Below are positions 6,773 to 55,334 of a stretch of 64,000 nt of DNA, in pieces (the first letter of the stretch is position 1; every line of letters begins with the position of its first letter). The stretch comes from Selenomonas sputigena ATCC 35185 (lineage in GTDB: Bacteria > Bacillota > Negativicutes > Selenomonadales > Selenomonadaceae), in the NCBI RefSeq assembly GCF_000208405.1, contig NC_015437.1:310001-374000 (forward strand). Reading direction: 5' to 3'. A model generated the notes under the pieces. The model did not search any database. It worked only from the letters and a program-made list of their open reading frames with translations, and was not told where the DNA came from. A program made the translations under genes and the position numbers.

Positions 6773-6803
6773 TTGACAACACCCCTACTATATAGCTTAC
6801 AAT
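6773..6803 (+). promoter_or_regulatory. Candidate promoter of the MATE gene
   Basis: TTGACA (6773-6778) and TACAAT (6798-6803) with a long 19-bp spacer. A transcript from here would begin within the hairpin repeat at 6804-6851, about 70 bases before the gene. Confidence 0.5.
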
Positions 6804-6851
6804 GAAAGTCCAAGAAGTCAAGCCCGAAGGGCGCAGGCTGATTGGCTCTTC
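6804..6851 (+). repeat. Structured hairpin repeat, single copy, in the MATE leader
   Basis: This copy has CCAAGA (6810-6815), AGTC, AA, GCCC, the triloop GAA, GGGC, GCA, GGCT, GATTGG (6840-6845). GCCC/GGGC form the apical stem, AGTC/GGCT the middle stem (one G-T wobble), CCAA/TTGG the next. The same layout with different paired bases recurs at 31609-31657 and six times at 13481-13830. Its outermost stem is weak here (GAA/TTC). It lies in the leader of the downstream gene, in sense orientation. Confidence 0.75.
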
Positions 6852-6877
6852 TGGTCAAGCTGCAAAAGGAGAATTTC

Positions 6878-13397: not shown

Positions 13398-13419
13398 GCA
13401 CTTTTGAGAAAATATTTTA

Positions 13420-13938
13420 GGAAGCGCTGATAAAATGAGGTCGCCCAGATTTGCACAGATGCGCTGTATCTATAGCAGTCAACGTCAACCAATCATGCGG
13501 CGCGCTTCGCGCTTGCATTCTTGGGACGTTTTCGCATACGAGCCGTTGCCCAATCGCCTGCGTCCTTCGGACTTGTCTCTTGGACGGCTCAGCAGCAGTC
13601 AACGTCAACCAATCATGCGGCGCGCTTCGCACTTGCATTCTTGGGACGTTTTCGCATACGAGCCATTGCCCAATCGCCTGCGTCCTTCGGACTTGCCTCT
13701 TGGACGGCTCAGCAGCGGTCAACGTCAACCAATCATGCGGCGCGCTTCGCGCTTGCATTCTTGGGACGTTTTCGCATACGAGCCGTTGCCCAATCGCCTG
13801 CGTCCTTCGGACTTGCCTCTTGGACGGCTCAGCAAGGAGACAAACCACAGGCGTAACGGTGCTGCGTCGAGGTTTTGTCGACGACGAGAGGACAGCGCAG
13901 ATGTGTGAAGATGGGCGGCTGAATTTATCGGTGCTTCC
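13420..13938. mobile_element. MITE-like element with about 49-bp imperfect terminal inverted repeats
   Basis: The left end (13420-13468, starting GGAAGCGCTGATAAAATGAG) and the complement of the right end (13890-13938) align over about 49 bases, both finishing in GCGCTGT. The ends are GGAAGC and GCTTCC. Two short copies of the same family without cargo lie at 23539-23605 and 24632-24698. Here the centre is filled with a six-hairpin array. No transposase is encoded. The frames that stay open across the element on both strands arise because the inner repeat unit is 120 bp (40 codons) and are not counted as genes. Confidence 0.7.
13481..13830 (-). repeat. Tandem array of six structured hairpins (three 120-bp units)
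   Basis: Three copies of a 120-bp unit, nearly identical. Each unit holds two diverged hairpins of about 50 bases (13481-13530 and 13540-13590, then every 120 bp). Read on the minus strand, each has an outer stem, CCAAGA, an inner stem, AA, an apical stem closed by GAA, GCA or GCC, the inner stem's partner, GATTGG and the outer partner. Stems differ between the two types but stay paired: AACGT/ACGTT versus GAGCCG/CGGCTC outside, GCGC/GCGC versus GTCC/GGAC at the tip. The substitutions in the second unit create G-T wobbles on the minus strand, which favours an RNA role on that strand. Confidence 0.85.
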
Positions 13939-14029
13939 TTAAATAGGCAGGAATCTTATTTGGACATATTGAGGGAGGGAACTTGAGGAAACTGCAAGCC
14001 AACCTCCCATGAGTATCCCGATCATCTGC

Positions 14030-31439: not shown

Positions 31440-31608
31440 GATGAACCATCCTTTCCGGATCATGCAGGTACTCTGCGTTCAGTATAGCAAGATGTCGATA
31501 AAATGGCAACGAATTTGTCGACACCTCTGCTGCGGGGATCGGAGCAGAGTATCCAGTGGTATAACGCATGGTCGAGAAAAGAACTGTTTTATGCGTGTAG
31601 TTTACCAT

Positions 31609-31657
31609 GAAGCCCCAAGAGGTCAAGCCGAAGGCGCAGACCGATTGGCTCGGCTTC
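31609..31657 (+). repeat. Structured hairpin repeat, single copy, upstream of the Spx/ArsC gene
   Basis: Stems, outermost to tip: GAAGCC/GGCTTC, CCAA/TTGG, GGTC/GACC, GCC/GGC, with GA/GA opposite each other inside CCAAGA and GATTGG, and a GAA triloop. All helices are perfectly paired. Only the shared bases match the copy at 6804-6851; the stem bases differ but pair, as in the array at 13481-13830. A second palindrome (31671-31698, CACAATGTCCAC with GTGGACGTTTGTG) follows. No gene lies in 31464-31729. Confidence 0.8.
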
Positions 31658-31729
31658 TGTAAGGGCGGCGCACAATGTCCACAAAGTGGACGTTTGTGCG
31701 TGTAGCTTATGAGCGAAAGGAGCATTTGC

Positions 31730-53877: not shown

Positions 53878-55334
53878 AGGATTTTTCCAAGATTACAGAA
53901 GAGCTCGCCGTTTTGCAGGAGCGGACGGATTGGGCGCAGGGGACGGAGCGCATCGGGCAGCTGCTGGAAAAGCACGGGGCGGAGCTTGACCGCGGGGAGA
54001 AGAGCTTCCTGTACGGCCGGCTCGGTTACTTCCTGCGATTCCTTGAGCGCGCGGAGGAATCCGCCGCCGCCTATCGCGAGGCGGTTCTGTACGCACCGTA
54101 TCTCGCACAGCAGAGGAAGCTTTACAGCGATTACCTTTTGATCTGTCACTATCTGCCGCATGTCAGTGATGAGGAGCTGGCTGAGAGCCACTTCTTCTAT
54201 CAGAATTTCTTCCGCCCCAAAGAAGAGCTGCAGCATGTGCGAGACGATCATCGCCGCCACTCGAAAATCCGCATCGGCTATCTCTCGTCGAATTTTAAGA
54301 CGCACATCATGAGCTGCTTCATGATGCAGCTGCTGGCGCTCGCCGACCGCGATCGTTTCGAGGTCTACTGCTATGACCTTGGCGGGCTTTCCGACGGCGC
54401 AGCCGAGCAGATGAAGTCCTTTGGCAACATCTGGCGCAACATCGCTCTGCCCGAGGCGAAGGAGCGTGCGCGGACGATTGCTGCAGACGAGATCGACATC
54501 CTCTTCGACCTCGGCGTTCATACGGACGGCGGACATGGCCTGGCGACGCTCGGCTACAAGGCGGCGCCCGTGCAGATCGCAGGAATCGGCTACATGAGCA
54601 CCTCGGGACTCAAGGCGGTCGACTACTACCTGTCGGATCGCTTTCTTGACCCTCCCGGTAAGGGCGATGCCTATTTCTCGGAAAAACTGCTGCGCCTTTC
54701 GCACTCGCACTTTTGCTACACGCCTTTTGAAGAGATCTTTAAGAGTACGATCGACTGGCAGCCGCACGAAAGGCCGGTGTTTGGCTGCTTCAACAACTCT
54801 GCGAAGATTTCGGAGGAAATGCTGCGCCTCTGGCTGACGCTTCTCAGACGCGTGCCCGGTGCCAAGCTGCTGCTCAAAGCATGGAAGCCCGAGGCGCTGA
54901 TCGAAAAGGCGCTTTCTCTCGGTTATTGTCGTGGGGAGATCGAGGTGCGTCCCATGACGCTCGATTACGTCCACGAGTACATGGACATGGACATTGCGCT
55001 CGACACATTTCCCTATACAGGCGGCGGCACGACATGCGAGGCCATTTACATGGGCGTGCCCGTCGTGACGCTCGCGGGCACGCGCCATGGCACGCGCTTC
55101 GGGCTGTCGCTTCTGGAAAACGTCGGACTCGGCGAGCTTGTGTCGAATACGCCCGAAGAATACGTGGAGAAGGCTGCGGCGCTTGCATCGGACGCGGAAC
55201 TTCTCGCGGCACTGCACAAGAACCTGCGCCCCATGATGCAGCGATCTCCTGTGATGGACGGCAAAAGCTATGTGCGCGAAATCGAAGCGATGTATGAGGA
55301 CGTCTGGCAGGCGTGGCTCGATGGACGAGAATAG
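53874..55334 (+). CDS. Single-domain O-GlcNAc-transferase-like (GT41) protein
   Basis: A 486-residue protein overlapping the triple protein by four bases (ATGA). It has one TPR-like N-terminal segment and one GT41 domain from about residue 130 (KIRIGYLSSNFKTHIMSCFM), with EIDILFDLGVHTDGGHGLAT, APVQIAGIGYMSTSGLKAVD and DTFPYTGGGTTCEAIYMGVP. DLGVHT replaces the DLAGHT of the three domains before it, so its specificity may differ. Together with the upstream gene it gives four OGT-type domains in one operon. Confidence 0.9.
   Translation: MKDFSKITEELAVLQERTDWAQGTERIGQLLEKHGAELDRGEKSFLYGRLGYFLRFLERAEESAAAYREAVLYAPYLAQQRKLYSDYLLICHYLPHVSDEELAESHFFYQNFFRPKEELQHVRDDHRRHSKIRIGYLSSNFKTHIMSCFMMQLLALADRDRFEVYCYDLGGLSDGAAEQMKSFGNIWRNIALPEAKERARTIAADEIDILFDLGVHTDGGHGLATLGYKAAPVQIAGIGYMSTSGLKAVDYYLSDRFLDPPGKGDAYFSEKLLRLSHSHFCYTPFEEIFKSTIDWQPHERPVFGCFNNSAKISEEMLRLWLTLLRRVPGAKLLLKAWKPEALIEKALSLGYCRGEIEVRPMTLDYVHEYMDMDIALDTFPYTGGGTTCEAIYMGVPVVTLAGTRHGTRFGLSLLENVGLGELVSNTPEEYVEKAAALASDAELLAALHKNLRPMMQRSPVMDGKSYVREIEAMYEDVWQAWLDGRE

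Follow-up and report, generated by a model that had tools for sequence, protein, structure and literature searches.

REP/BIME elements and the REP-associated Y1 transposases (RAYTs) that go with them (PMC2817692) come close to the repeats described here, being about 100 small, clustered intergenic palindromes per genome with no coding capacity. REPINs (PMC3116915) share with the present repeats a mobile unit of two hairpins. The ends of IS200/IS605 elements are hairpins recognised in single strands; these elements have no terminal inverted repeat (TIR) and insert on the 3' side of a short T-rich site. MITEs of the IS5 type, which have a TNA target, are likewise small and non-autonomous. A 64,000-nt stretch of Selenomonas sputigena ATCC 35185 DNA (the window) holds an array that probably consists of three tandem copies of a dispersed, non-autonomous mobile repeat, namely one class (class 2) of a new family of such small elements whose hairpin is kept by selection for spreading.

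The original prediction of six tandem hairpins on one strand at 13481-13830 held: all six were placed on the minus strand and scored 57-61 bits, within the 52-65 bits of the eight window hairpins; the covariance model behind these scores was itself made from copies of this kind. At 13474-13834, the hairpins make up three tandem units, each of about 120 bp and with two hairpins, and the units are mutually 98-100% identical (Table 1). The compensatory stem changes listed earlier between the two hairpin types are real. The motif CCAAGA-N14-40-GATTGG has nine matches in the window, where 0.18 would be expected, and the genuine matches are eight (6810+, the six of the array, and 31615+); the match at 53887 was rejected as a chance match. 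A coding role was also rejected: the 120-bp period keeps frames open, but no frame is conserved because copies elsewhere carry 1-2 nt indels.

Table 1. Coordinates of the repeat features in the window.
Feature	Position	Strand	Remarks
TIR-flanked MITE, ends GGAAGCGCTGATAAA / TTTATCGGTGCTTCC	13420..13938	.	carries the array; TIRs ~50 bp
Array of three tandem class-2 twin-hairpin units	13474..13834	-	361 bp; inserted in the MITE, replacing 2 nt (CG)
Class-2 unit 1	13715..13834	-	120 bp
Hairpin A of unit 1	13780..13830	-	59.3 bits (covariance model); outer stem GAGCCGT/ACGGCTC
Hairpin B of unit 1	13719..13771	-	60.5 bits (covariance model); outer stem AACGTC/GACGTT
Class-2 unit 2	13595..13714	-	120 bp
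Hairpin A of unit 2	13660..13710	-	58.0 bits (covariance model)
Hairpin B of unit 2	13599..13651	-	56.8 bits (covariance model)
Class-2 unit 3	13474..13594	-	121 bp
Hairpin A of unit 3	13540..13590	-	58.8 bits (covariance model)
Hairpin B of unit 3	13479..13531	-	60.5 bits (covariance model)
Class-1 hairpin	6803..6853	+	3' part of unit absent; two tandem copies here in the sister species
Complete class-1 unit	31604..31709	+	hairpin 31608-31658 and second hairpin ~31668-31702; common to the sister species

Hairpins A and B follow one plan. Inward of the outer stem lies an invariant CCAA/TTGG helix, and a 2-3-nt bulge in the 3' strand separates the two. Next come GA facing GA, a variable stem of 3-4 bp and an internal loop in which AA faces GCA; the apical stem, likewise variable, carries a triloop that is mostly GNA. 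At the level of the family, the hairpin is 53 nt long with conserved internal loops. Short variants without the AA/GCA loop and the apical stem (e.g., CCAAGA-ACC-GTA-GGT-GATTGG) occur at four loci, and the invariant part therefore comprises CCAA/TTGG, GA/GA and the 3' bulge. Class 2 is a 120-bp twin-hairpin unit that reads TGCTGA, hairpin A, GYATGCGAAA, hairpin B, GACCGC, with both hairpins in the same direction and conserved linkers GYATGCGAAAACGTC and GACGTTGACCGC. Class-2 units with altered stems are present in several families, and in other genomes GTG/CAC, GCA/TGC or GCC/GGC takes the place of the outermost GCG/CGC pairs. The class-1 unit spans about 106 bp and runs from AC-YATGAAAGT through the hairpin, ACTTTCAT and TAAGGGCGGC to a further hairpin, different in type (GCGCACAATGTCCAC...GTGGACGTTTGTGCGTG), followed by TAGYTT. 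At three loci, a class-1 subfamily carries another 3' part (TAAGGCRTGAGGACATRTRTACAGCGTGCC...). The units have defined ends without a TIR, and in clusters they stand in direct tandem, neither alternating nor inverted.

The same motif matched 112 times in the 2.57-Mb genome and never in the reversed-pattern control; judged from their inner structure, about 105 of these matches are probably genuine. In a sister species from the same genus, it matched 102 times. Of 380 Negativicutes genomes, 94 yielded members when searched with a covariance model made from the copies, as the original prediction had proposed; the members are spread over many families and patchy between close relatives. A simple ORF scan placed most copies between genes. 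In GTDB genomes, a pattern scan returned Selenomonas, Centipeda and Acidaminococcus, as well as metagenome-assembled genomes (MAGs) labelled Christensenellaceae, Eubacterium and Oscillospiraceae. Outside the class, the hairpin core sits in different tandem units of about 155 and 171 bp, one of them beside a tRNA gene: a 155-bp unit in the Christensenellaceae MAG (L260:6879-7230), and a different unit also in the Eubacterium MAG (L267:223-434 and L231). Viral contigs and phage and plasmid records gave no match, and a literature search found no description of the repeat. An Rfam scan at the gathering score returned no match in the window and no family overlapping the hairpins in the other loci scanned. 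We consider membership of a new, previously uncatalogued family of small dispersed repeats the best explanation of the hairpins, and a reasonably probable one.

Comparison of copies demonstrates that the hairpin is real and that its structure rather than its sequence is conserved, with compensatory changes setting the hairpins of different subfamilies apart. Among 136 distinct copies, pairs changed on both sides 451 times, compared with 177±10 in shuffles, and in 34 chosen copies 108 cells were changed on both sides, compared with 41±5; kinship among copies inflates such counts, but the margin is large, as is the variety of pair types. The covariation score of the 136 copies was 0.384 vs 0.144, and slid registers were far lower too. 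The predicted covariation thus survives class-wide, and with it the structural half of the original claim of selection on an RNA structure. The other half, RNA from the minus strand, was not supported. It had been drawn from unit 2, where the substitutions at 13630 and 13665 indeed leave the minus strand with G-T and the plus strand with A-C. Family-wide, this asymmetry disappears: among 2468 pair cells, deviations comprised 50 G-T and 37 A-C, whereas the acceptor and T stems of tRNAs at the same loci gave 20 G-T and no A-C (Fisher p 1e-4, for copies that are not independent). These counts were made with a separate parser and an unbiased choice of register, because the covariance-model alignment (A2) misplaces the 2-nt bulge and 3-bp stems of hairpin B.

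Orthologous copies in the two sister species tell the same against a minus-strand RNA selected at the locus. They differ by 18 changes in 776 hairpin positions, or about 3.5% vs 3.9% in the flanks, where the hairpin figure is an arithmetic correction that leaves out 12 positions fixed by the search pattern. One-sided changes made or unmade A-C six times and G-T four times. Once placed, copies drift with no sign of selection on structure.

Comparison with the sister species also revealed filled and empty sites. Four clean class-1 sites differ by about 105-107 bp per copy, one of them (L175/L064) by two tandem copies, and at two class-2 sites the difference is about 120 bp, with less clean junctions in which 1-4 nt of the target are altered. 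Tandem copy number varies between orthologous sites (one copy at window 6803, two in the sister species). Both classes therefore behave as mobile DNA and multiply in tandem. A T-run precedes class-1 units, and GTAGYTT closes them; because the right end repeats TT or TTA, a YTT end is indistinguishable there from a short duplication of the target, and this repeat is the most that was found at class-1 junctions by way of target duplication of the units themselves. Among incomplete copies, 38 are 3'-truncated and 11 are 5'-truncated. A SINE-like target-primed retroposon was rejected, as 5' truncation is not in excess and the reverse transcriptase domain RVT_1 gave no match in 8 of 13 high-copy genomes.

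The orientation of the units bears on two further readings. Relative to the strands of the upstream and downstream genes, class-1 units are randomly oriented (17 ++, 17 +-, 12 -+ and 18 --), and a role as leader or terminator was rejected on this ground. Units turn up often, in either orientation, in the rRNA operon spacers of several genera, sense after 23S or beside 16S at nine loci and antisense in the 23S-5S spacer at two (L119 and L183). A fixed role in pre-rRNA is unlikely because both senses occur. Two further loci are listed with twin-hairpin units in rRNA operon spacers. A structured RNA from the CCAAGA...GATTGG strand (sRNA, leader or pre-rRNA processing element), with the copies as an RNA gene family, would account for the strong covariation, the fixed internal loops, the frequent position in rRNA operons and a folding z of -3.1 on the minus strand vs -2.2 on the plus strand. 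This reading is weakened, and we regard it as unlikely, given that G-T about equals A-C where tRNA differs, that placed copies show no constraint in situ, that orientation to genes is random and antisense copies occur in 23S-5S spacers, and that Rfam gave no match. Orientation to replication is random as well (35/72 and 33/72 sites). Host sites retained for a chromosomal function and bound by a DNA-binding protein, such as a nucleoid or replication factor, would fit an invariant core in about 100 copies round the chromosome, but the random orientation to replication, the patchy presence between close relatives and the lack of constraint in situ make this the hardest of the readings to credit. 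We conclude that the structure appears to be selected for spreading and not as a local RNA, and the array looks like a selfish element rather than a conserved RNA gene at this locus.

The array lies within a MITE that is flanked on both sides by TTA (13417-13419 and 13939-13941), which is probably a target duplication; the TNA-type target suggests an IS5-like transposase for the MITE. This type of MITE has many copies, some without hairpin units. Three MITEs were found without units, two of which read CTCCT-CG-ATAGATA at the point of array insertion; one MITE carries a single class-2 unit and is, unit included, wholly absent from the sister species; and two carry a class-1 unit. Class-2 units therefore entered the MITE. 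Among the copies seen, the three tandem copies are peculiar to the window locus. The units might instead be passengers in ordinary DDE-transposase MITEs and spread by them, as about ten other class-2 copies, besides the window array, lie inside the same MITE. However, most copies lie outside MITEs, including all class-1 filled and empty sites, which refutes this reading for class 1, and unit-free MITEs exist; overall, we find it improbable.

Searches for an enzyme that moves the units were directed at known systems. Y1_Tnp (PF01797), which covers RAYTs and the IS200 family, gave no match in 12 of 18 high-copy genomes (the sister species and 11 of 17 others), yet was present in all 12 copy-free genomes tested. 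The TnpB domain (PF07282) gave no match in 8 of 13 high-copy genomes, and clustering of neighbouring proteins across genera showed no recurring protein family or transposase beside the units. Y1/RAYT, reverse transcriptase and TnpB are thus not generally required. The units resemble strict-sense REP elements moved by a RAYT in being palindromic, intergenic, clustered and without TIR, at about 100 copies. That they are such elements is very improbable nonetheless, in view of the distribution of Y1_Tnp, the sequence directly 5' of the hairpin (TTTACYA in class 1 and TGCTGA in class 2, with no GT(A/G)G head) and the direct, non-alternating arrangement. In the genome itself, an IS200-like Y1 element is present six times, in near-identical copies inserted after TTAT, with none in the sister species; two of them landed at the end of class-1 units. 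This element was rejected as the mobiliser, having its own target and its own ends, and those two copies merely landed in class-1 units. In another genome of the same class (G042), a region near a Y1_Tnp gene (L124:2746-2856) matched Rfam STnc490 at 77 bits. STnc490 is an enterobacterial Hfq-binding sRNA, and the match may possibly be an IS200-associated RNA.

Under the favoured explanation, that of a mobile repeat family, the folded hairpin would be recognised by an enzyme that acts in trans to move or copy the unit. The folded form would be a single strand, most likely of DNA, or a cruciform, and the fixed letters (CCAA/TTGG, GA/GA, AA/GCA, the GNA loop and the 2-3-nt 3' bulge) would be the enzyme contacts. 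In source copies, selection would keep the pairing and give rise to covariation between subfamilies, while placed copies would decay. We infer single-stranded DNA because it fits hairpin transposition in IS200/IS605 and REP elements, the GNA triloops and the missing G-U excess; a single-stranded DNA step is thus suggested by the type of loop and the weak strand asymmetry. GNA triloops are very stable in DNA, and the triloop argument also fits RNA. Single-stranded DNA transposition often has a lagging-strand bias, and none was found among the 72 sites in either orientation count given above, which counts against it. Also counting against the favoured explanation are the unclean class-2 junctions, with 1-4 nt of the target differing, the lack of a candidate enzyme or of a protein family recurrent beside the units across genera, and the alternative that recombination or template switching at hairpins spread the units. 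More tentatively, and with considerable doubt, the repeats may represent a mobile-DNA class of Negativicutes that reaches Clostridia and moves as a folded single strand with RNA-like motifs, by an enzyme that is not of the Y1/HUH IS200 type, a reverse transcriptase or TnpB.

If the favoured explanation is right, a widespread small mobile repeat has been absent from Rfam and from the literature searched, and strong covariation alone is no proof of a functional RNA, as selection for mobility on a folded strand gives the same signal. It would also make testable what moves structured repeats in genomes without RAYTs. The repeat will also mislead searches for RNA motifs and the typing of rRNA spacers in this group of bacteria.

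Set against the known systems, the unit works like a REP element and fails the three defining REP features tested: the head, the cognate Y1 and the alternating orientation. It differs from REP/BIME elements (PMC2817692) in its 53-nt hairpin with conserved internal loops, strong covariation and direct twin units, as well as in having no GTAG head and, in 12 of the 18 high-copy genomes tested, no Y1 gene. The hairpins of REPINs (PMC3116915) are inverted, whereas both hairpins here run in the same direction with conserved linkers. Unlike the units, the genome's own IS200-like element has other ends and a TTAT target, and is absent from the sister species. The window MITE, with its TIRs and the TTA on both sides, resembles the IS5 type; the hairpin units, in contrast, are without TIRs and move independently of the MITE.
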